A stretch of 64,000 nt of DNA from Myxococcales bacterium. Lineage in GTDB: Bacteria; Myxococcota_A; Polyangia; Nannocystales; Nannocystaceae. Below are positions 50,696-64,000 of the stretch, piece by piece. The position numbers were made by a program, and so were the translations under genes. Below the pieces are notes generated by a model. The model made no database searches, had not been told where the DNA came from, and saw nothing but the letters and a program-made list of their open reading frames with translations. Positions within the stretch are counted from its first letter, which is position 1; each line of letters begins with the position of its first letter. The stretch is taken from assembly GCA_014240065.1 (NCBI GenBank), contig JAAZXR010000009.1, positions 1 through 64,000 on the forward strand, given 5' to 3'.

Positions 50696-52300
<1,605 letters not shown>

Positions 52301-52306
52301 GGCCGG

Positions 52307-52891
52307 TTACTCCTTTCCTTCCTGCTGCTCCGGTCGCTCCCACGTCGCCAGGGTCAGATCGACGTTGAGCCGATCTTCTGTCGACGATGGTGACCGCACG
52401 AGGAGGTTCTCCGTGAGCACAACGTGCGTGGGATTCGACTCGAGCTTCGCGACGAAATCGACGAGCTGCTCAAGGGTGACGCCACGGAGATCAAACTCAA
52501 CGGCGTTCTTTCTCAGACCATCCTTGAGATCCACAGGCTGCAAAAGCTGCTGGTTCCTCGCGGAGATTCCGATCTGCTGGGCGGCCTCCTCGACCGCGGT
52601 CGTCAACAGCAGCGACTCCGAAGATATCTTCGACTCCCGCTGCTGTTTTTGGGCCGCCTTGCGCTGGTAGACGCCCCCTTGACTGTACGCGAGTTCGATC
52701 CCTGCGCGCAGGTCCGACACCCCGTCTTCGAGCTCGTCGAGCTTCATCCCGCGGAAGAAAAACAACAGCGCCAACGCGGTGACGAACGCCGCCACGACGA
52801 ACGCGAGCACCAAGGTCCGCTCGCGTGGCTGAAGCCGCGCGACGAACCCGTGACTGTGCCCCCCGAGGGGCACCCCTTTTGGATCACTCAT
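52307..52891 (-). CDS. gspM: Type II secretion protein GspM
   Basis: 194 residues, with an N-terminal cytoplasmic stretch, one helix TLVLAFVVAAFVTALALLFFF (about 25-45) and a periplasmic domain of alpha/beta type. GspM joins GspL in the inner-membrane platform of the type II secretion system. Its ATG overlaps the gspL stop (TAATG). Sequence identity in the GspM family is low; assignment rests on size, topology and gene order L-M-N. Confidence 0.85.
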   Translation of the reverse strand: MSDPKGVPLGGHSHGFVARLQPRERTLVLAFVVAAFVTALALLFFFRGMKLDELEDGVSDLRAGIELAYSQGGVYQRKAAQKQQRESKISSESLLLTTAVEEAAQQIGISARNQQLLQPVDLKDGLRKNAVEFDLRGVTLEQLVDFVAKLESNPTHVVLTENLLVRSPSSTEDRLNVDLTLATWERPEQQEGKE

Positions 52892-54708
52892 TACTGCTCC
52901 TCCATTTTCGCGGTTCCAAGCTCTCGATAGCAGTTGTGATCGACGATCATCTCAAACACCTTCCGTTCGTTACGATCAACAATGCGCCCCTTCGTGATGC
53001 CCCCAACACAGCCGAGCAGCTCTAGCTGGATGGCCAGCCGGTCCTGGGCGGACGCGCGCGTGGCTGACATCTTAAGCTCCATCTTCCGCTCTCGAAGATC
53101 GATGGAGCCGAACTCCAGGGCGTCGCTCATCACTATCCCTGCGTTGTTGTCGATCATCTGCAGGCCGGTGTCACCGTCCCCGTCCCCGGCCGCCGCGCCA
53201 TCTTCGGGGGCAGGCATCGGTATCGCGGCGCCCGTGGGATCCACGGGGACTCCTCCGTCCATCAGCTGTGGCAAGGGCGCGAGTGGCACCTCCGGGGGTT
53301 GTCCATTCCCAGCATCCGAAGGGGTCGCGGCCAACGCCACCATATCCAGCAGCTCGAGGGCACCGCGCGACGGGATCGCCTTCTTGAGATCTGCGCCGCC
53401 CACCGACAACACCGCGGCCTCGATCTCCGATCGAGTGGAGAAGGACTCTCCGAAATACTGCTTGGTGACTACAGACAACTCCTCGGTGAGGAGCTCGGTC
53501 TGGCGCTCGAGCGCCTGCTGTTTGGCGAGCGAGTCGATGCACGCCAGCGCGAAGACAGCGAACCCCACGGCGACCAGCGTATAAAACTGACGCTGCATCC
53601 ACCCGGCGTCGCGCTCCACCGCGCTCGCGTCGTCGAGGCGGATAAGCGGGCGCCTCGCTGCGCCGATACTCGCCCCCAACGCCGAGCAATAGTCTCCCCA
53701 ACCTGCCTCCGGTGCCTCGCCAACCACTTTCCCCACAGGCGTGATCACCTTCGCGGGGATCCCAACGCGCCCCTCAAGATACTCTCCGAGCCCCTCGATA
53801 AGGGCGCCGCTGCCCGCGAGCCTTAACTCCGTCATCTCGCAGCCAAGCTCGTTTCGGAGCCAGAGTCGCGTGAGCTCGATCTCTCGAAAGATCACCTCCA
53901 GGGTAGATTCGGTGAGCACCGCGACAGCGCGCTGCTGCTGCGAGAGCTCCGGCAGCCCGCCGTGGGGCAAGAAGGCGCTGTCGCGCTTCAGCTGCTCCGC
54001 GCGCTCCTCCGCCACACGATACTCGCGAGCGAAGGCCGCGGTGAGATGCTGTCCACCGCGCCGGACCGAGCGAATCGCCACGATGCCCTTCTCCGTGATC
54101 GCGGAGAGTTCAGACGAGCGCGATCCCATATCCACGATCAGCGCCGCCGGGAGCACCTCCTCGGCCCCATCATCTTCATCGCTGGCGTAGGCCTGGACCG
54201 GTCCGATCTGCGTTTGGGCCAGCGCCGCCGGCGTGGTGGTGAGGAGGCGGAGGTCGAGCCCCTCCGCGCCGCACCGCTCTACCACAGCCTCCGTGACCTC
54301 CTGTGGAACGGCGATCGCGACCGCGACACCGCCGCCGCGCGTGGCGCTGCTGGCGTGATCATACTTGTACTCGGTCAGCCCCTTGGGCAACAACTCTTCG
54401 AACTCGAACGGCAACACCTGAGCGATTCGCTTCCCGTCGGAGAACGGAAATTTGATCACCCTCGCGCTCGCCAGATTCCCCGACAGCGCGATACCAGCCG
54501 GGAGGCGCTCAAGCCCGTTCGCACGCAGCAGCTTGAGCGCGGCCTCCAACGAGGCCATGCTTCGCCCCTCGCGATCGAGCGACGCCTCACTCTGCGGTAC
54601 GTCAGCCTCGTACACCGCGACGACTTGAACGCCGCGAAAGCCCGCCGTGGATACGACGCAGCGGACGTTCTTTGAACCTAAATCAATTCCAACAAACTGT
54701 TGTGCCAT
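52891..54708 (-). CDS. gspL: Type II secretion protein GspL (PilM-like cytoplasmic domain)
   Basis: 605 residues. The N-terminal 350 residues form an actin-like PilM/GspL domain: VGIDLGSKNVRCVVS (about 5-19), FEFEELLPKGLTEYKYD and ALIVDMGSRSSELSAI, with GSGALIEGLGEYLEGRVG. A membrane helix (FYTLVAVGFAVFALACIDSL, about 375-394) and a periplasmic domain (about 395-605) follow. The periplasmic part has a Pro/Gly/Asp-rich linker near 480-520. GspL anchors GspE to the inner membrane. Gene order and size fit GspL rather than PilM, since PilM lacks the long periplasmic domain. Confidence 0.9.
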   Translation of the reverse strand: MAQQFVGIDLGSKNVRCVVSTAGFRGVQVVAVYEADVPQSEASLDREGRSMASLEAALKLLRANGLERLPAGIALSGNLASARVIKFPFSDGKRIAQVLPFEFEELLPKGLTEYKYDHASSATRGGGVAVAIAVPQEVTEAVVERCGAEGLDLRLLTTTPAALAQTQIGPVQAYASDEDDGAEEVLPAALIVDMGSRSSELSAITEKGIVAIRSVRRGGQHLTAAFAREYRVAEERAEQLKRDSAFLPHGGLPELSQQQRAVAVLTESTLEVIFREIELTRLWLRNELGCEMTELRLAGSGALIEGLGEYLEGRVGIPAKVITPVGKVVGEAPEAGWGDYCSALGASIGAARRPLIRLDDASAVERDAGWMQRQFYTLVAVGFAVFALACIDSLAKQQALERQTELLTEELSVVTKQYFGESFSTRSEIEAAVLSVGGADLKKAIPSRGALELLDMVALAATPSDAGNGQPPEVPLAPLPQLMDGGVPVDPTGAAIPMPAPEDGAAAGDGDGDTGLQMIDNNAGIVMSDALEFGSIDLRERKMELKMSATRASAQDRLAIQLELLGCVGGITKGRIVDRNERKVFEMIVDHNCYRELGTAKMEEQ

Positions 54709-54711
54709 GTC

Positions 54712-56043
54712 TCATTCCTCTCGAAAGAACAGCCAGGCCCCCTTGCCCGAGCTGTTGCTCCGTCCGTATTGCATGTCGTAGACGGCGTCCACGCGGGTCC
54801 TGGCGGCGCCGACATCCGTGATGATCTCGATTCTGTAGTATCGCTCTGGCTCGACGGTGGCGACCTCGCGCAGCCCGCCCCAGCACGAGTCGTTACGACA
54901 GCCCTCGTTCACGCGCACCTCGACACCATCGGGGATGAAGGAGTTCGTCTGCTGCTCGGCGTCGTCCCCTCCGGTCAAGAACGCCGGCATCATGTACTGA
55001 TCAGGCTTACCGACGATGCTCTTGAGGTCGGTCAGTTTCTCAAACAAATTGAACTGCCGCGCCTCCACCACGAAGTTGGCGAGGGGCAGCGTCATCGCGA
55101 GGTAGTTTGGCCCCTCTGTCTTCCAGCGGTCACGCGAAGACACTGCGTGGACGAGCACCGCGGCGATCTGTCGCGCGGAGGCGAAGTTCACGTTGATCTT
55201 GCACGAGCCATAGACGGTCAATTCGTCTCCGAAGGCGGCCACCCAATCGTCATCGATCCCCTCCACGAGCTGGAGCTCCTCGAGGCTGTCAAGCCGGGCG
55301 TTCCTCGGCTGGTAAGGGTCGTACAACTCGGTGTAACGGTAACGCTCTGCGCCGCCGCCGGTCTCCATCCTGAGGGGATCGAAGCTGCTGCGATTGTCGT
55401 CGATATAGTCGACGATGCTGCTCAGCACATCAGTCCTGCGATACGTCTGCCCGTCGGCCTTGTCCTCCTCGAACAACGGATCGTAGAGGCTGGGAGCCAT
55501 CAACTGGGCCAGCATGGTCGCGGTCTGGCTCTGCACCTTGCTGCCTTTCGAGTCCGACTTGTTGAGGCAGTTGACGTTAATCCGGCCGCTCTCCGCCTCG
55601 ACGCGAACCTCAAATCCCCCGCCTCCCAGCGACAAGTCACCGAGCGCAGACGTGTCCATCCCGACGAAGTCACCGAGGGCTTGCGCCCCGTCCTGACTCC
55701 CGAAGATCGACATGAGATAGGGCGCCACCTGGGTGATGTCCATCTGGCCGCCGACGAACTCTCGAAACTGCTTCTGGTTAAACACCATCCGCTGAAGCTC
55801 GAACATCAACACCGACAAGCGCAACGCGCCCCGCTGCATATTTCGGGCCTTGACCTTGTCCGCGGTGTTCACGGAGCCTTGCCAGTCGACCTTGGCGTCG
55901 AGGTTGAAGGTGGTCGTGAACGGGATCATGACGGCCAAGGCCGCGAGCACCATCAGCAACGCGACGCCGCGCTCACTGCGTCGCGCCGACGGCGCCTCGG
56001 CGAGCGCTTCGTTGGGTGGCTGAAGTTGATCGGGTGTCGTCAC
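54712..56043 (-). CDS. gspK: Type II secretion minor pseudopilin GspK
   Basis: 443 residues, long for a pseudopilin as is normal for GspK. The N-terminal prepilin segment is RGVALLMVLAALAVMIPFTTTF (about 25-46). The large domain has VDYIDDNRSSFDPLRMETGGGAERYRY and the helical insertion typical of GspK. GspK caps the pseudopilus and lacks the Glu5 of most pseudopilins, consistent with GVALLMV here. It follows gspJ by 4 bases and precedes gspL by 3. Confidence 0.9.
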   Translation of the reverse strand: MTTPDQLQPPNEALAEAPSARRSERGVALLMVLAALAVMIPFTTTFNLDAKVDWQGSVNTADKVKARNMQRGALRLSVLMFELQRMVFNQKQFREFVGGQMDITQVAPYLMSIFGSQDGAQALGDFVGMDTSALGDLSLGGGGFEVRVEAESGRINVNCLNKSDSKGSKVQSQTATMLAQLMAPSLYDPLFEEDKADGQTYRRTDVLSSIVDYIDDNRSSFDPLRMETGGGAERYRYTELYDPYQPRNARLDSLEELQLVEGIDDDWVAAFGDELTVYGSCKINVNFASARQIAAVLVHAVSSRDRWKTEGPNYLAMTLPLANFVVEARQFNLFEKLTDLKSIVGKPDQYMMPAFLTGGDDAEQQTNSFIPDGVEVRVNEGCRNDSCWGGLREVATVEPERYYRIEIITDVGAARTRVDAVYDMQYGRSNSSGKGAWLFFREE

Positions 56044-56047
56044 GTCA

Positions 56048-56752
56048 TCACCGTCCTAGATCAATCTTCTCCTGCATGACCAAGGCGGTCTGCACGTGAT
56101 AGGTCACGATCTCTTCGCCCTCGCGAACACCGAGCTTGATCCACACCCGCGTGGGCAGTCGATCGGGCTGCTCCGAGTTCATGGTGGTCGCCCAGCTGTC
56201 GACCCACTCTTGGCGATTGAGATCAAAGTACTTGAGGTCGAACACCTCCACGTCTTCACAGGCGACGTACGCCGGGAAGTAGTTCTCCATGTTCTCCGGC
56301 AGGTCACCCATGAGGCGCCGTGACTCACGACGATAGAGGTGCTGGCGAGAGCGGTCCTCTGGATCCCCGGCCACGAAGTACTGGATGACGGCCTGATCAG
56401 ATTCGTTGGCGTCCTGGCGCAGTCGGAGGTGCGCGAAGGTCGAGAACGTCACGTTGTCGCGCTCAAATTCGTCTCGCCCTTCGAACAGCGTGAAGTGTCG
56501 CTGCTCATCGAGCGGCCGATTAAACGACAGGTACGACATCGACAGCTCCGCCGAGATTCGACTCAACGCCCCGCGGATCGTCTGCGCGCGCTCTTGCAAG
56601 ACCCGGTTGCGCTGCACACCCCGCATCGTGGACTTAAAGCTCGCCCACACGGAGGTCATCATCATCACCATGATGGCGATAGACACCATGACCTCGATGA
56701 GGGTCATGCCGCGCGCGCGCGCGCGCCTCGACGCGCCGAGCATCCGGGACAT
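56048..56752 (-). CDS. gspJ: Type II secretion minor pseudopilin GspJ
   Basis: 234 residues. The prepilin motif RARARGMTLIEVMVSIAIMVMMMT has cleavage expected after Gly15 with Glu5 of the mature protein present. The C-terminal region has FDLNRQEWVDSWATTMN and LPTRVWIKLGVREGEEIVTY, typical of GspJ. The ATG overlaps the gspI stop (TGATG). A GC dinucleotide run (bases 56710-56726) encodes the ARARARG just before the cleavage site. Confidence 0.9.
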   Translation of the reverse strand: MSRMLGASRRARARGMTLIEVMVSIAIMVMMMTSVWASFKSTMRGVQRNRVLQERAQTIRGALSRISAELSMSYLSFNRPLDEQRHFTLFEGRDEFERDNVTFSTFAHLRLRQDANESDQAVIQYFVAGDPEDRSRQHLYRRESRRLMGDLPENMENYFPAYVACEDVEVFDLKYFDLNRQEWVDSWATTMNSEQPDRLPTRVWIKLGVREGEEIVTYHVQTALVMQEKIDLGR

Positions 56753-57486
56753 CAGTTGATCCCTCCGATCGAGGGCGTGCGCGACGGCCCGCCGGGCAGG
56801 CCGGGCGTGGGCCGAGGGATGCCCGAATCACCGTCCGAGGAATCGTCGTCCGCGTCACCGAACTCCCCGCCCATTCCCGGGAGTTGCGTCAACCCTTGGG
56901 GGTTCGTCCAGAACGTGCTGACCGTCGTCTCGTACTCTTGCTTGCCCTGCTTCCATTTCGCGGTGCAGGACGCCTTTCGGATCGAATTCTCGATGGCGCC
57001 TTGGACCAACGGCCAGACCATGCCGAACACTCCAACGGTCGCGTCGCCCGTGTCCACCATGCCGTCATCCTCGACACCGCTCGCGTCTTCAGCCTCATCC
57101 TTCGCCCCTTGGATCTGGCTCCACTCCGGGAGCTCGAGGAAGTCAACGAGGCAGTGGTATTCCATGTCGGGCCAATCTTGATCCGAAAATTCACCGTCAA
57201 ATTCAACGTCGTTGCTCGGCCAGCCATCTTGTTGCAGCTCCCACTCGATCTCGTGGAGCTGGAATTCCGCCAAAAATACGGCCGCCGACAGTGAGTGTGC
57301 GTAGCGCATCGCCCGGAGGCTCGTGATCTGAGAGCTCAAGAGCGAGGTCAAGCTCATGCCCAAGATCGCCACCGCCACCATCACCTCGAGGAGCGTGAAT
57401 CCGCCATCCTGCCCTGCCGAGCTCGCGGTCCGCCGACTTCGACGCGCTCGCGAGTCGTCGTCGCGACGCAGCCAACGCCCGCTCAA
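56752..57486 (-). CDS. gspI: Type II secretion minor pseudopilin GspI
   Basis: 244 residues from a TTG that overlaps the gspH stop (TTGA). The prepilin segment is GGFTLLEVMVAVAILGMSLTSLL (about 28-50), cleaved after the first Gly pair. Basic residues RRDDDSRARRSRRT precede it. The mature domain is longer than the roughly 110-130 residues of most GspI, with an acidic, Asp/Glu-rich middle and a Gly/Pro-rich end (GDADDDSSDGDSGIPRPTPG). Assigned by position between H and J. Confidence 0.85.
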   Translation of the reverse strand: MSGRWLRRDDDSRARRSRRTASSAGQDGGFTLLEVMVAVAILGMSLTSLLSSQITSLRAMRYAHSLSAAVFLAEFQLHEIEWELQQDGWPSNDVEFDGEFSDQDWPDMEYHCLVDFLELPEWSQIQGAKDEAEDASGVEDDGMVDTGDATVGVFGMVWPLVQGAIENSIRKASCTAKWKQGKQEYETTVSTFWTNPQGLTQLPGMGGEFGDADDDSSDGDSGIPRPTPGLPGGPSRTPSIGGIN

Positions 57487-58316
57487 AACGACCTCCGCTG
57501 AATCGAGCGCCCGAGGGAGTCCTCTCCATCGAGGATGTCGCGCGGCAGCGTGAGGTCGATGAGGCCACCTTCCACGCGAACGCGCCCCGTGAGCGGCTCC
57601 ACAATCACTGTGTAGCCGTCCTCATCATCTTCGCTCCCCTTCTCGCGTAACTGAATGTGGGCCAGCTGGGTGCGCCCTTGCGGGAAGAAGTAGAGCGACG
57701 CCTCCTTTTCAGTGATCGCCGCCGGGTCGTGCTCGGTTCGCACGGAGACGATTTCGACGCCATCCGGAAGCTGGATGGTCTCGCCGAGGCCCGAGAGGCT
57801 CCCTTCGCCGCTAAAGTTCGAGAACAACGGAGGGCGCCGGCGCGGGACTTTCTCGGCCGTGATTGCGTAGGGGTTCATATCCTCGCCTTCGAGCATCCCC
57901 ATCATCCGCCCTTGGATCGAGCTGAAGTAGCTCTCCGCGGCCTTCTCGTCGCGCGCGACCTTGTCGGCCTCCTCGTCTTCGTCGTACTCGCGAATGCTGC
58001 CGTCGCGGTCAGTCGAAGGCATGTACATCCGCTCGTCTGCGCTCTGGAGCGAAAAAGAGCCCTTCTCAAAATCGAGATTGAGCCGGTAGTACGTCCCCGT
58101 GACCAGCGCCTTGTTGAAGGCGAAACGCACGGTGCCCGCCACTTGATTCGTCGCGCGCATGAGCTGCGCCTGCCGCCCCGCGCCGAGCCCCATGAGCAGG
58201 CCACCGGCGAGCAAACCAACGACGGCGACGACGATCATCACTTCGATGATCGTCATCCCGACACTCGCGGTTCTGCGGCTGCTTCCCCGCGTGGCTGCAC
58301 GCTTACGACGCTCCAA
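57483..58316 (-). CDS. gspH: Type II secretion minor pseudopilin GspH
   Basis: 277 residues from a TTG with AAGAGG upstream. The prepilin segment VGMTIIEVMIVVAVVGLLAGGLL (about 18-40) has the Gly/Met cleavage and mature Glu5. The domain is longer than usual (about 170), with an acidic insert (REYDEDEEADKVARDEKAAES). The end has DGYTVIVEPLTGRVRVEGG, matching the terminal strands of GspH. It is 9 bases after gspG. Confidence 0.85.
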   Translation of the reverse strand: MERRKRAATRGSSRRTASVGMTIIEVMIVVAVVGLLAGGLLMGLGAGRQAQLMRATNQVAGTVRFAFNKALVTGTYYRLNLDFEKGSFSLQSADERMYMPSTDRDGSIREYDEDEEADKVARDEKAAESYFSSIQGRMMGMLEGEDMNPYAITAEKVPRRRPPLFSNFSGEGSLSGLGETIQLPDGVEIVSVRTEHDPAAITEKEASLYFFPQGRTQLAHIQLREKGSEDDEDGYTVIVEPLTGRVRVEGGLIDLTLPRDILDGEDSLGRSIQRRSF

Positions 58317-58325
58317 TTTAACCTC

Positions 58326-58754
58326 TTAGGAGTCGCCCTCGGCGTCACCTTCGTCCCACGAGTTGACGTCGTCTTCGGATCCGAATTGCTTGTCCGGACC
58401 CGCGGACGCCACGTCAATCTCGCCGTGCTCGCCCGGACATGTGATCTGGAACGCGGTCCCCCATGGGTCCTTCTTTGACTTCTTGAGGATGCCGCCAGCC
58501 TTGAGCTCCTGCATATCCTTTGGGCACTTGTTTTTCTGCACCATGTACATCTCGCAGGCGCTCTCGATCTGCGTGACGTCGTTGGTCGCGGTCTTGATCT
58601 TCGCAGCCCCGAGCTGGCCGAACGCCGCGACCGCGACGCCTCCGACGATTAAGCCGATGATCGCCAACACGACCATGATTTCGATCAGGGTCATGCCACG
58701 GCTGGCTGAGCGGGCGAGTTTGGGCGGGTTATGTTGATTTCTTACAGTGTTCAT
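58326..58754 (-). CDS. gspG: Type II secretion major pseudopilin GspG
   Basis: 142 residues from the ATG at 58754, with GGAG eight bases upstream; a longer frame to 58775 has no good site. The prepilin segment is RGMTLIEIMVVLAIIGLIVGGVAVAAFGQLGAAK. The mature domain has KDPWGTAFQITCPGEHGEIDVASAGPDKQFGSEDDV, the GspG calcium-loop region with its Asp residues. One Cys pair (CEMYMVQKNKCPKD and the later CPG) gives three Cys, an uncommon feature. GspG builds the pseudopilus. Confidence 0.93.
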   Translation of the reverse strand: MNTVRNQHNPPKLARSASRGMTLIEIMVVLAIIGLIVGGVAVAAFGQLGAAKIKTATNDVTQIESACEMYMVQKNKCPKDMQELKAGGILKKSKKDPWGTAFQITCPGEHGEIDVASAGPDKQFGSEDDVNSWDEGDAEGDS

Positions 58755-58809
58755 TCCTTGTCTCCGTTGTGTCATGTGTTCGCGCGACGCGAGGTCGCCT
58801 GTTTAAAAG

Positions 58810-59016
58810 TCATGGATGGTCCTGGGCCGTCAGCGCGACGCCGATCGACTGATGAGGCGCGGTCCCAGCGCTGTCGGTCCACCACGCGCCCCCCACCACA
58901 GCGGCGATCAAAACGCCGACGAAGCCGAGGCACCGCAGCATCCACCGCGCCCGCTCCAGCGCGCGCATCTCCGTCGCCATTTGGATAGACCAAGGGGAAG
59001 AATCGAGATGTTTCAT
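58810..59016 (-). CDS. Small membrane ORF between gspF and gspG, unknown
   Basis: 68 residues, starting inside the gspF stop (ATGA overlap). It has one hydrophobic segment (RCLGFVGVLIAAVVGGAWW, about 29-47) and a short polar C-terminal tail, with a 25-residue cytoplasmic or leader part. No prepilin motif, no lipobox and no Cys pair are visible. Canonical T2SS operons run gspF directly into gspG, so this looks like a lineage-specific insertion. It could be a small accessory protein or a reduced GspC-like anchor. Coupling supports it being translated. Confidence 0.6.
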   Translation of the reverse strand: MKHLDSSPWSIQMATEMRALERARWMLRCLGFVGVLIAAVVGGAWWTDSAGTAPHQSIGVALTAQDHP

Positions 59017-60257
59017 AGGTTGGCCATGCTGTTCATTTGGATGATGGGTTGCATGATCGCGAAGACGATGAAGCCGACGACGACGGCCATGCCCACGATC
59101 ATCAGGGGTTCAAGCACCGCCATGGAGCGATTAATCGCCGTGTTAACCTCGCGGTCGTAGGCGTCGGCCACATCGCCGAGCATGGACTCAAGCTCGCCCG
59201 AGCGCTCTCCAACCGAAATCATATGAGTCACGAGCGCCGGGAACTCGCCGCTGCGCTTGAGCGCCGGAGCGATGCCCTCGCCCTCGCGGATGTCGTCTCG
59301 CGCGTCCGACACCGCCTTCTCAAGGGTCACATTACCAAGCAACGAGCTCACGATGTCCAACGCCTCGAGGAGCTGGACGCCGCTGGCCAACATAGTCGCG
59401 AGGGTGCGGGAGAACCGCGCGACCGCGACTTTGCGGAGCAGATCGCCGAGAAACGGGAGCGACAGTTTTCGCTGGTCGAGCGATGCGCGGCCAGCCGCGG
59501 TCGTTCGCCACCTCCCAAACGCCCACGCGGCGGCGACGCCCACGATGATGATGAGCCACCAATAGCCGCCCACGAAGTCGCTGACCATGATGAGAATCCG
59601 CGTTGAGAACGGCAAGGTCATCTCCTGGTCGGAGAACAACTCCGTCACTTGCGGGACCACCTTGACCATCAAGAGCCCGACCACGAAGGTCGCGACCAAC
59701 GCCATGGCGATGGGGTAGAGCAGCGCCGTGCCGAGCTTCCCCTTGAGCTCCTCTTGCTGGTCCATAAAATCCGCGAGTCGAATCAGCACCGTCTCCAACG
59801 CCCCCGAAGACTCCCCGGCCCGCACCATATTCACGTACAAGGGCGTGAAGACGTCCGGGTGGGCGCCGAGCGCAGCGGCCAACGACGACCCCTCATTCAC
59901 TCGCCCAGAGAGATCACTTAACACCCCCTTGAAGCGCGCGCTCTCCACCTGATCGGTCAAGGCGCTCAGCGCCTCTGGGAGCGTGACCCCAGCGACGAGC
60001 AGCGTCGAGAGCAGGCGCGTCACATACGCCACCTGCTTCGGGCTCACCCGGTCAAAGAGCGCGCCAAGATCAAATTCTGTCGACTCCGTGTCCGTCGTCT
60101 TCCCTGGCCGCCCCGAGGCGCTCGCCTCGGTCACAGCGGTCAAGTACACGCCGTCTCGCCGCAAGGCCGCCTTGAGTCCGGCGACCGTATCCGCCGTCTG
60201 CACCCCCTTGATGCTACGGCCCTGACTGTTCAGGCCGGTGTAGGCGAACGCGGGCAA
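59013..60257 (-). CDS. gspF: Type II secretion inner-membrane protein GspF
   Basis: 414 residues from a TTG with GGAGG eight bases upstream, inside the gspE end. The two T2SSF repeats are at about 80-200 and 285-405, each with the EGxxLAxAL-type helix (NEGSSLAAALGAHPDVFTPLYVNMVRAGESSG and REGEGIAPALKRSGEFPALVTHMISVGERSG). Three membrane helices are present, ending MIVGMAVVVGFIVFAIMQPII. GspF is the polytopic platform protein. The TTG start is shared with gspH and gspI. Confidence 0.95.
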   Translation of the reverse strand: MPAFAYTGLNSQGRSIKGVQTADTVAGLKAALRRDGVYLTAVTEASASGRPGKTTDTESTEFDLGALFDRVSPKQVAYVTRLLSTLLVAGVTLPEALSALTDQVESARFKGVLSDLSGRVNEGSSLAAALGAHPDVFTPLYVNMVRAGESSGALETVLIRLADFMDQQEELKGKLGTALLYPIAMALVATFVVGLLMVKVVPQVTELFSDQEMTLPFSTRILIMVSDFVGGYWWLIIIVGVAAAWAFGRWRTTAAGRASLDQRKLSLPFLGDLLRKVAVARFSRTLATMLASGVQLLEALDIVSSLLGNVTLEKAVSDARDDIREGEGIAPALKRSGEFPALVTHMISVGERSGELESMLGDVADAYDREVNTAINRSMAVLEPLMIVGMAVVVGFIVFAIMQPIIQMNSMANL

Positions 60258-60260
60258 GCG

Positions 60261-62132
60261 CTAAGCCTCCTCCGCGGTGACCCGCATGATCTCGTCCACC
60301 GTGGTCACACCCGTCAACAGTTTGTGCGCCCCGTCGTCGCGCAGCGTTCGCATGCCGTCGGCGAGCGCCGCCTCTTTGATCTCAGCCCCCGACGCGCGCT
60401 GAATCGCCATCCGACGGACGGGCTCTGTGATCTCAAGGACCTCGTAGATCCCAGTACGCCCCGAGTACCCGGTGCCGTGGCACGCGTCGCATCCCCGCGC
60501 CTCCCACACCTTTCCTCGCGGAGGAATACCTGGGGAGGCGACCGCCTCAAGCGGCTCAACCTCCCCCTTCGCGTCCCGAATGGGCGACCGTAAGGCCTCC
60601 GCCCCTTTCCCAGCGGCGAACGCCACCGGATCAATGTTGAGCTCCGTGAGCACCTGCGCGGTCGGGGTCACGGCCTCCCTGCACTCCTTGCAGACGCGGC
60701 GAATGAGGCGCTGGGCCTGCAGCGCACAGAGCGAAGAAGCTACCAAGAACGGCTGCACGCCGAGGTCGACGAGGCGCGTGATCCCCGTCGCCGCGTCGTT
60801 GGTGTGAATGGTCGAGAGCACCAAGTGGCCCGTCAAGGAGGCCTGAATCGCGATTTCTGCGGTCTCGAGGTCACGAATCTCGCCGACCATGATGACGTCG
60901 GGATCGTGCCGCAAGAACGACCGCAAGCCCGTCGCGAAGGTGAGGTTGATCTTCGACTGCACCTGCACCTGGCTGATCCCCGGGAGTTGAAATTCGACCG
61001 GGTCCTCCACCGTGAGAATGTTAAGCTCCGGCTGGTTAATCTCCGAGAGCGCCGAGTACAGCGTCGTCGTCTTGCCCGAGCCCGTGGGACCGGTCACGAG
61101 GAAAATCCCGTGCGGTCTCGCGATGGTGTCTAGCACGACCCGAAGGTGATCAGAGGCCATACCAATCCCCCGAAGGTTGAGCATCACGGCCGACTTGTCC
61201 AGCAGACGGATCGTCACCCGCTCCCCGTGTGCCGTGGGCGCGGTGGCGACACGCATGTCCACCTCTTTGCCGGCGATCTTTCGGCGAATACGTCCGTCTT
61301 GCGGGAGGCGTTTCTCGGCGATATTGAGCCCCGCCATGATCTTGACGCGAGCGATGATGCTCGAGAGGTGGGCCCGCGGTGCACGCTTGACCTCTTGAAG
61401 AACCCCGTCCACTCGAAATCGAACCGTGACCTCTTTATCACCGGGCTCGATGTGGATATCCGACGCCTTCTCTTTCGACGCGTTGAAGATGAGGCTGTTC
61501 ACGAAGCGGATGATCGGCGCGTCCTCCGCCGACGCGTGGAGGATGTCCTCATCATCGAGTCCCGCCTCCTCCTCTTTCTTCTCGAGGTCTACGTCCTTCG
61601 CCCGCTTCGAGTAGATCTTGTTAATCAGCTCGATGATGGCGGACTTGCTCATCAGCGTGACGTGCACTTCTGCGTCGAACACCTGCCCGAGATCATCCAG
61701 ATCAAAGATCCGGAGCGGGTCCGCAGACAGCACGTGGATCTCATCGAGCTCTCGGTCACGCTTCCATGGCATGCAGACGTTGCTGCGCGCGAAGCCGATG
61801 GGGAGCTCCTCGACCAGCTCGTCCTCGATCTCCCCCTCCGCGATCGTGGAGATCGTCGGGAGCCCGAACTGACGCCCCAGCGCCTCGCACACTTGCTTCT
61901 CGGTGCAATGGTGTAGGCGCACCAGGGTCTCCCCCACCCGCTCCTCCTCAAGGTGCTGGACGGCCAGCGCCTCGGCGAGCTGCTCCGCGTTCGCGGCGCC
62001 CATGTCCAGCAGGATCTCCCCGAGTTGTCGGCCGTCGGGTCGCTTGGGCAACGCCCGCGCCGGCCGAGGGAGCCCCGGCGAGGTCGTACGCGGCGGCGGA
62101 CGTCGAGATGGCAGTGGCGGTGGTTGGCTCAT
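60261..62132 (-). CDS. gspE: Type II secretion ATPase GspE
   Basis: 623 residues. The N-terminal N1E domain has LGEILLDMGAANAEQLAEALAVQH and VGETLVRLHHCTEKQVCEALG. The ATPase has Walker A GPTGSGKTTT (near 347), the Asp box ILTVEDPVEFQ and Walker B DPDVIMVGEIRD with HTNDAATGITRLVDLG. The C-terminal Cys4 zinc module has CKEC and CDAC, but about 60 residues lie between the pairs (normally about 30), with a Pro/Gly-rich stretch. It powers secretion through GspL. It is followed by gspF, whose start lies in its tail. Confidence 0.96.
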   Translation of the reverse strand: MSQPPPLPSRRPPPRTTSPGLPRPARALPKRPDGRQLGEILLDMGAANAEQLAEALAVQHLEEERVGETLVRLHHCTEKQVCEALGRQFGLPTISTIAEGEIEDELVEELPIGFARSNVCMPWKRDRELDEIHVLSADPLRIFDLDDLGQVFDAEVHVTLMSKSAIIELINKIYSKRAKDVDLEKKEEEAGLDDEDILHASAEDAPIIRFVNSLIFNASKEKASDIHIEPGDKEVTVRFRVDGVLQEVKRAPRAHLSSIIARVKIMAGLNIAEKRLPQDGRIRRKIAGKEVDMRVATAPTAHGERVTIRLLDKSAVMLNLRGIGMASDHLRVVLDTIARPHGIFLVTGPTGSGKTTTLYSALSEINQPELNILTVEDPVEFQLPGISQVQVQSKINLTFATGLRSFLRHDPDVIMVGEIRDLETAEIAIQASLTGHLVLSTIHTNDAATGITRLVDLGVQPFLVASSLCALQAQRLIRRVCKECREAVTPTAQVLTELNIDPVAFAAGKGAEALRSPIRDAKGEVEPLEAVASPGIPPRGKVWEARGCDACHGTGYSGRTGIYEVLEITEPVRRMAIQRASGAEIKEAALADGMRTLRDDGAHKLLTGVTTVDEIMRVTAEEA

Positions 62133-62144
62133 CGCTCGTCGTTC

Positions 62145-64000
62145 CTATCGAATTCGCGCTGAAGAGGACGTGGCCTTGATGGTCGGACGCTTCGTGTCCT
62201 TGGTGTCGCCACCGGCTGTACCGAGGCGAGGGCTCGCGCCGAGCTCGCCGGAGATCCGCTCGGAGGACAGCTCGTCCTCCGCCTGCCGCAGCAGCCGCTC
62301 CTCGTGCTCGAGTCGCCTGGCTTCGCGATCGATGCTCGGCAGCAACCCGGACTTGTCCCGGTAGTTAATATTCGTCTCAAGATCTTTGCGCGCGAAGCTC
62401 GACTCACGCTCCAAGAACTCCATGCGCTCTCGGATGCGACGGGCGTGAATCCGGCGGACGTCGTCGGGGCTGTCCACGATATGGGGCACCATGATCACCA
62501 GGAGGTTCACCTTCTCCTTGCCCTTTTTCTTGCGCTTGAACAGCCACCCAAAGATCGGAATCTTCCCGAGTCCGGGCACCTCCTCGGAGGCCTCGCTCTC
62601 TTTTTCACGAATCAGCCCGCCCAACACAAGAGGCTGCGCGTTTTGGGCTTTGATGTGCTCCAGCTTAAATTTTCTCTTGGTGGTGGTCACACCCAAGATC
62701 GGATCGATGGACACCACGTCCTGGTCTTCAATCTCCACGTCCATCGTCACTGTCTCTGAATCGTTCACGTGCGGCGTGACCTTGATCTTCAAGGTCACCG
62801 GCTCGCGTTGCACGTTGACCTGCGGGATGGCAGACAGACCGCCGGCGCTCGTAATTCCGGAGGTCGAGCCGACGCCGTTCGGTGTCGGAACCGTCTGCCC
62901 CACCTCGAGCTCCACCTCGCGATTGTCCGCCGTCATCACGTGCGGCTCGGCGACGACGTTGATGTCGTCTGATTGGTGCAATGCCTGGATCACGAGGCCG
63001 AATCCCGGCACATCATTCTGCGTCCCGAGGATTTGGCCCGAGTTTGGGATCACCGGCCCGAGCAGACCGCCCGCGAGCCCTTGGAGTCCCGCTGGGTTGA
63101 GCGCCAGTGAGCTCACCTCGGGGGACGGGGTCGAGGTGACAAAGCCCAGCCCGTCACCGTTCGCGGTCGGCACCGGCGCGCCGAAGTGTCCGCCGGTCCC
63201 CGCCGTCAGCCCCCGCGTCACGTTGGCCTCGAGCAAGTAGATCTCCAAATACACCTGCGGCCTGTCCGTATCGATCTCGTCGATCACGCGTTCGAGATTC
63301 CGGTAATCCGCTGCCGAGGCGACGATGACCAGCGAGCGGCTCGCCTCATCCGCGGTCACTTTCACGTCTCCTGAGAACAGCTCCGCTGACACACCACCCT
63401 CGGCGGCGCTCTTGTTCTTGCCCTTTTTCTTCGAGTTGGAAGACTTTGTCTGCGTCAAGCTCTGCAGCACCGTCGCGAGCTCCTTCGGGTCGGCATACTT
63501 CAGCGGCTTTACGTGGATTCGACCGCCGCCGCCAGGCAGGCGCACGTCGAGCTGCTCCACCAAGCGTCGGACCGTGGTGTAGTCGGTCGCCGACGCCACG
63601 ATGATCAGGGTGCCGGTTCGGTCATCCACGATGACGCGCGAGACGTCTGCCGTCGTCCCTTTCGCGCTGCTCGACTTTTTCTTTTTGGAGCTCTTGCTCT
63701 TGGAGCCGCCGGCGGTCTCACCGAAGATCTCTCGGATGATCTCTGCCACCTCGTTGGCGTCGGCGAACTGCAATTGATAAAAGAAAATTCGATCGCCAGC
63801 CTCTGCGAGATCGAGCTGCTTGATGATCTTCATGAAGCGGCGCACTGTGCTCCCGCGCTCCGTGATGATCAAGAGATCCCCGATCACCTCGATGCTCCCC
63901 TGCTTGCTCTTCATCTTGTCGAGCACGGTAGACACATCGGAGGCGTCCGCCGCCTCGAGTCGCACGAGCTGGGTGACATAGCGATCGTTGTTGGGCGCGG
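62145..64000 (-). CDS. gspD: Type II secretion secretin GspD (partial, N-terminus cut by the window)
   Basis: At least 617 residues to the right edge; the frame continues beyond 64000 (APNNDRYVTQLVRLEAADASDVS). N1-N3 domains show the beta-alpha repeats (KPLKYADPKELATVLQSL). The secretin core has VELEVGQTVPTPNGV, MDVEIEDQDVVS, VLGGLIREKESEASEEVPGLGKIPIFGWLFKRK and VNLLVIMVPHIV. The region between N2 and N3 is Lys/Ser-rich. It forms the outer-membrane channel for folded exported proteins. gspC, if present, is beyond the right edge. Confidence 0.95.
   Translation of the reverse strand, partial: APNNDRYVTQLVRLEAADASDVSTVLDKMKSKQGSIEVIGDLLIITERGSTVRRFMKIIKQLDLAEAGDRIFFYQLQFADANEVAEIIREIFGETAGGSKSKSSKKKKSSSAKGTTADVSRVIVDDRTGTLIIVASATDYTTVRRLVEQLDVRLPGGGGRIHVKPLKYADPKELATVLQSLTQTKSSNSKKKGKNKSAAEGGVSAELFSGDVKVTADEASRSLVIVASAADYRNLERVIDEIDTDRPQVYLEIYLLEANVTRGLTAGTGGHFGAPVPTANGDGLGFVTSTPSPEVSSLALNPAGLQGLAGGLLGPVIPNSGQILGTQNDVPGFGLVIQALHQSDDINVVAEPHVMTADNREVELEVGQTVPTPNGVGSTSGITSAGGLSAIPQVNVQREPVTLKIKVTPHVNDSETVTMDVEIEDQDVVSIDPILGVTTTKRKFKLEHIKAQNAQPLVLGGLIREKESEASEEVPGLGKIPIFGWLFKRKKKGKEKVNLLVIMVPHIVDSPDDVRRIHARRIRERMEFLERESSFARKDLETNINYRDKSGLLPSIDREARRLEHEERLLRQAEDELSSERISGELGASPRLGTAGGDTKDTKRPTIKATSSSARIR

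Follow-up and report, generated by a model that had tools for sequence, protein, structure and literature searches.

Between gspF and gspG, the type II secretion operon in the window (the whole stretch of 64 000 nucleotides that was analysed) contains an additional gene encoding a 68-residue protein with a single membrane segment. As judged from one pair of sequences, this open reading frame (ORF) is a real gene that evolves as a protein under purifying selection. With moderate confidence, its product is considered to be a true accessory subunit, restricted to this genus, of the inner-membrane assembly platform of the type II secretion system, with its translation coupled to that of gspF. The ORF, seen at present in two genomes that belong to the same genus, is a genus-restricted accessory gene in a known machine of which the operon in the window is apparently a variant without gspC.

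The type II secretion operon and the additional ORF

The operon lies on the minus strand in the order gspD-E-F-ORF-G-H-I-J-K-L-M-N (Table 1). All genes from gspD through gspN are present, with some minor pseudopilins and gspM assigned by weak matches and position only. GspN carries a long low-complexity acidic C-terminal tail. The earlier note described an ORF of 68 residues with a single membrane segment that starts in the stop codon of gspF and precedes gspG, and both the sequence and the hydropathy confirm this description; its end had been placed at 59013, three bases short of the real extent, which includes the stop codon.

Table 1. Coordinates of the ORF, its parts, the genes of the type II secretion operon and the empty gspC slot.
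Feature	Position	Strand	Basis or remark
68-residue single-pass membrane protein gene (ORF)	58810..59016	-	ATG 59016-59014, stop 58812-58810
ORF codons 1-28, predicted cytoplasmic segment MKHLDSSPWSIQMATEMRALERARWMLR	58933..59016	-	strongest constraint
ORF codons 29-46, membrane helix	58879..58932	-	differences by codon position; hydropathy; AlphaFold2 model
ORF codons 47-68, predicted periplasmic tail, unconstrained	58813..58878	-	codon-position differences
gspD	62145..64000, running past the window to contig base 64496	-	
gspE	60261..62132	-	position; 69-74% identity to copies in other family genomes
gspF	59013..60257	-	TIGR02120, 446 bits, over cut-off
gspG	58326..58775	-	PF08334 and N_methyl over cut-off
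gspH	57483..58316	-	TIGR01708, below cut-off
gspI	56752..57486	-	TIGR01707, below cut-off
gspJ	56048..56752	-	N_methyl over cut-off; PF11612 just below
gspK	54712..56043	-	PF21687 over cut-off
gspL (PilM-like domain, membrane segment, periplasmic part)	52891..54708	-	PF11104 over cut-off; linker comparison
gspM	52307..52891	-	NF040576 weak, below cut-off; position
gspN	50696..52300	-	TIGR04411 over cut-off
Empty gspC slot	contig C235 64497-64607 (L009 497-607), just outside the window		

The stop codon of gspF (59015-59013) overlaps the ATG of the ORF as ATGA, and this overlap is present both in the genome of the window (G000) and in the only other genome of the genus that was examined (G001). 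No clear Shine–Dalgarno sequence was seen before the ATG of the ORF, and initiation would therefore rest on coupling. The likely start of gspG is the ATG at 58754, with GGAG ahead of it at 58765-58762; gspG thus seems to have its own ribosome site, and the ORF accordingly looks like an added cistron. At the end of the ORF (58754-58813) an ATGA is again found; the ATG within it is in frame with gspG in G001, and in G000 a one-base difference ends this frame after 13 codons.

The predicted product of the ORF has a mass of 7.4 kDa. The ORF has one hydrophobic stretch, the best 19-residue Kyte–Doolittle window of which (2.06) begins at residue 26. Five K/R and three D/E residues precede the helix and no K/R and two D/E residues follow it, and because of these counts the N-terminus is predicted to be cytoplasmic. 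The AlphaFold2 model, computed from an alignment of two sequences, places a helix at residues 8-51 (mean pLDDT 73, pTM 0.38) and a second helix of low confidence at residues 53-65, and adds little. A prepilin cleavage motif is absent from the ORF, with no N_methyl or TIGR02532 match and with the motif pattern missing. Neither an HR domain nor a T2SSG domain (PF08334) after the helix was matched in Pfam; only 22 unconstrained residues remain after the helix, and none are left to hold a C-terminal PDZ domain or coiled coil. The ORF of the window has no match in Pfam even at an E value of 10, and searches of both copies against Pfam and NCBIfam gave chance-level matches only (CyoD, 0.047; DUF2749, 0.16 for the copy from G001).

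Conservation and selection

In G001 a relative of the ORF occupies the same place, as the earlier note had envisaged for a conserved small ORF; it aligns over 68 of 68 residues without a gap at 69% identity and preserves the start, length, frame and stop. The two copies differ at 64 nucleotides, distributed 14/11/39 over codon positions 1/2/3, which cause 21 residue changes. Random placement of these 64 substitutions gave 37.9 residue changes on average; none of 20 000 draws was as low as the observed value, and 64% of the draws gained a stop codon. It is because of this third-position excess and these few residue changes that the ORF is taken to evolve as a protein, and the view of the earlier note that it is coding is thereby upheld; as there are only two ORF sequences, the conclusion on selection amounts to one pairwise comparison. 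In this comparison, selection is on the cytoplasmic start and, to a lesser degree, on the helix, while the 22-residue tail drifts: codons 1-28 contain 18 differences (1/0/17 by codon position) and two residue changes, codons 29-46 contain differences of 3/4/11 and six residue changes, and codons 47-68 contain differences of 10/7/11, with 13 of the 22 residues changed.

The NG86 estimates between G000 and G001 are a dN of 0.20 and a dS of 2.46 for the ORF, with this dS near saturation and the dN/dS ratio therefore rough, a dN of 0.047 and a dS of 0.99 for gspF, and a dN of 0.038 and a dS of 0.69 for gspG over 122 codons. The single length difference between gspF and gspG in the two genomes falls after the stop codon of the ORF. 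The codon usage is mildly coding-like (0.087 log-odds per codon, the best of the six frames); all 51 in-frame windows from the adjacent gsp genes score higher, and a score as high as that of the ORF is also seen in 12 of 255 off-frame windows.

No convincing relative of the ORF beyond G001 was found in searches of a set of 59 genomes, of 29 genomes of the order and of 317 genomes of the class. A scan of genome contigs returned a single locus, which its length, coordinates and identity show to be the contig of G001. In the set of 59 genomes, 27 gave a match at an E value of 0.1, and apart from the ORF itself and the copy in G001 every match had an E value of 0.001 or worse; in the order, 14 of the 29 genomes gave a match at 0.05, the remaining matches being at about 0.002 or worse. 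The class search, which scored 19 candidates per genome among the matches listed, returned three of the 317 genomes under 0.001. The third of these (G217; E value 9.6e-4, residues 23-67) was set aside as unsupported, the long frames of its locus showing, by eye, no sign of gsp genes.

The gspF–gspG junction in related genomes

The gspF–gspG junction was obtained from 25 of 27 family genomes that belong to other genera, and none of these 25 has a separate membrane ORF there; the first membrane frame is either gspG or a long upstream extension of the gspG frame. Outside the family, ten of 29 junctions from the class carry a separate GspG-like gene, here called GspG2, between gspF and gspG. Direct joining of gspF to gspG is the rule in the family and not in the class, and the statement of the earlier note that type II secretion operons usually join the two genes is to be confined to the family. 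GspG2 is found in families f5, f8, f11 and f14, namely in genomes G032 (locus L047), G035 (L043), G040 (L083), G041 (L052), G043 (L038), G048 (L032), G049 (L041), G051 (L039), G056 (L033) and G057 (L044). The GspG2 proteins have 136-157 residues, a hydrophobic stretch and GspG-like sequence without a prepilin motif, and all four that were tested match T2SSG in Pfam. Some of their N-termini (ISLPWERR and VFFPWEKR) presumably resemble the PilN peptide that docks on PilM.

In a type II secretion locus on a Sphingomonas plasmid gspF is joined to gspG. On a Cupriavidus plasmid (L120 6382-9180) gspF and gspG are separated by an annotated DNA/RNA non-specific endonuclease gene and a hypothetical gene, and no gspC is annotated in the type II secretion stretch of this plasmid. 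Searches of the open-licence literature gave no account of a small ORF between gspF and gspG in this group and nothing on Nannocystaceae with type II secretion.

The apparently missing gspC and the N0 domain of the secretin

In all 18 loci of the family that reach the slot, gspC is flanked by a sigma-54 response regulator gene on one side and by gspD on the other. In G000 the regulator gene (64608-66098) and gspD are on the same contig and are separated by 111 bp in which gspC is missing. A profile of 21 GspC sequences matched in 55 of 59 genomes, including all 27 of the family that belong to other genera; there was no match in G000, G001, G036 or G054. At E values of up to 10, G000 gave only three matches to the GspC profile; these lie in frames of 562 and 634 residues that belong to other contigs, and each of them is to the PDZ end of the profile. 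PF11356, the model of the HR domain of GspC, was also not found in G000; this model is less sensitive, 22 of the 59 genomes having no match to it at an E value of 0.1, of which 19 have a match to the GspC profile. The earlier note had not seen gspC in the window, and the gene is likewise absent from the slot typical of the family and was not found in the G000 assembly. G000 has apparently lost gspC, a conclusion that concerns one contig of one draft assembly (97.67% complete).

At 54% completeness of the G001 assembly, the missing GspC match in this genome means little; the contig that carries the ORF there has 3117 bases and ends before the gspC slot. In G036 and G054 the gspF contigs also end before the slot, with a weak PF11356 match in G054, and in neither is there a separate ORF in the gspF–gspG gap; failure to detect gspC is thus not always accompanied by such an ORF. 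In G003, two tandem matches to the GspC profile, each of full profile length, were observed (G003:C23:369459-371561).

The N0 domain of GspD, which binds GspC in other systems (excerpts of PMC3169554 and PMC6882859), is detected in G000 (PF21305). Between G000 and 18 GspDs of the family the identity is 65% in N0 and 52-56% in the other domains, and among those 18 it is 78% in N0 and 62-67% in the other domains; extra divergence of the G000 N0 domain relative to the other domains was looked for and is absent, and something may therefore still bind it. There are three options for G000: a different protein holds the N0 domain, the domain has no partner, or gspC is located in the small fraction of the genome that the assembly lacks. 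A search of seven genomes for PF04351, a PilP-like HR protein that might stand in for GspC, says little about replacement: G000, G001 and G025, the last of which has gspC, gave no match, G011 and G019 (both gspC-bearing) and G054 gave weak ones that stayed below the cut-off, and G036 gave one over the cut-off.

Alternative explanations of the ORF

The ORF could be a reduced GspC, in which the cytoplasmic start and the anchor were kept, or evolved again, after loss of the HR and PDZ domains and were placed between gspF and gspG. It is consistent with this that gspC is missing from G000 whereas all 27 genomes of the other genera in the family have a match to the GspC profile, with the gene in the same slot wherever the locus reaches it, and a gene table for Burkholderia vietnamiensis places the GspC product between gspF and gspG (excerpt of PMC13101487), which gives some support from gene order. 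The product of this type II secretion operon gene is predicted, like GspC, to start with a short cytoplasmic segment and to cross the membrane with one helix, and where the helix starts both contain W, a pair of hydrophobic residues and one basic residue, in most cases together with LG. However, GspC has 310-359 residues in the 21 aligned relatives compared with 68 for the ORF, which lies at a different place in the operon from gspC in the family; among the parts of GspC described in an excerpt of PMC3169554 (cytoplasmic segment, membrane helix, linker, HR, linker and C-terminal domain), the ORF has the first two and none of the remainder, and because its tail is not conserved it cannot, unlike GspC, form a bridge to the secretin. 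The sequence similarity is borderline at best. In pairwise comparisons with shuffles, seven of the 21 GspC N-termini gave p values under 0.05 (uncorrected and non-independent), and the mean score against 18 GspC N-termini of the family was reached by four of 87 other N-terminal membrane segments, taken from open frames (putative genes) of the examined loci and filtered by hydropathy and base composition. The best single score, however, was reached by 17 of these 87 segments, an HMM of the GspC N-terminus gave −1.0 bits on the ORF, with 1374 of 2000 segment-preserving shuffles equally good, and hhalign gave a probability of 1.1% (P 0.047). On these grounds the reduced GspC-like protein that the earlier note had put forward is unlikely.

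Similarly doubtful is the derivation of the ORF from a relative of GspG2 of which only the cytoplasmic start and the membrane helix are left. The place in the operon is the same, the start of GspG2 overlaps the stop codon of gspF in five of the ten loci, and an N-terminal segment followed by a hydrophobic helix is common to both; PW precedes the helix in two GspG2 families, and the mean score of the ORF against the three PW members was reached by one of the 87 segments and the best score by five. This subset was picked after the motif had been seen, however, and against all ten GspG2 proteins the mean was reached by 34 segments and the maximum by 12, one of the ten pairwise comparisons had a p value under 0.05, the score of the GspG2 N-terminus HMM on the ORF was reached by 1534 of 2000 shuffles and hhalign gave a probability of 2.2% (P 0.021) over six columns. 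Moreover, the GspG domain that follows the helix in GspG2 (PF08334) is not present in the ORF, and GspG2 occurs at none of the 25 junctions from other genera of the family. An open frame that arose by chance in GC-rich DNA would fit the occurrence of the ORF in two genomes only and its weak codon usage, but is extremely improbable in view of the third-position excess, of residue changes fewer than in any random placement, and of a frame that is kept with a length difference only after the stop. It is also very improbable that the ORF is a mainly structural spacer, a leader that is translated in order to guide ribosomes on from gspF to gspG and whose peptide is of little use; the ATGA overlap and the unconstrained C-terminal third would agree with this, but residues 1-28 are nearly unchanged while the third positions vary, which argues that the peptide matters, and gspG seems to have a ribosome site of its own.

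A likeness to PilN lies in the short cytoplasmic piece before the membrane helix and in the PilM-like nature of GspL in this operon, and the PW of the ORF may resemble a PilN motif. PilM binds the short cytoplasmic part of PilN (excerpt of PMC4471445). However, the ORF has no PilN domain and GspL already has its own linker. Supply in trans of a lost GspL linker by the ORF was considered and rejected, the linker being present (RRPLIRLDD, and RRPLIQLHD-like in relatives of the family); since it is kept as in the relatives, nothing obvious is missing for the ORF to supply.

Proposed role of the ORF product

As an accessory subunit of the inner-membrane platform, which is the reading preferred here, the ORF product would be made together with GspF and may lie beside GspF, GspL or GspE, where contacts in the cytoplasm and within the membrane would let it stabilise or adjust the platform or the docking site of the ATPase. 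It would not act by reaching the outer-membrane secretin and is unlikely to do the secretin-binding work of GspC, because nothing in its predicted periplasmic tail is kept. With less confidence, it may be suggested that the ORF originated in a lineage that had lost gspC and makes up in part for this loss. In a further, rather tentative proposal, which we would put below an even chance by a wide distance, the type II secretion system of G000 works without a GspC that spans the periplasm, the 68-residue protein keeps only the role at the inner side and as membrane anchor, and the secretin, with its N0 domain intact, is either held there by a different partner or left without one.

If this were true, the two jobs of GspC would have been separated naturally. 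A system without gspC that has gspD through gspN, an N0 domain and an added small membrane protein would make clear which of the tasks of GspC are dispensable or replaceable. For the mitochondrial system, replacement of GspC by an unrelated protein has been raised (excerpt of PMC8134430); that system has also lost the N0 domain, whereas G000 keeps it.
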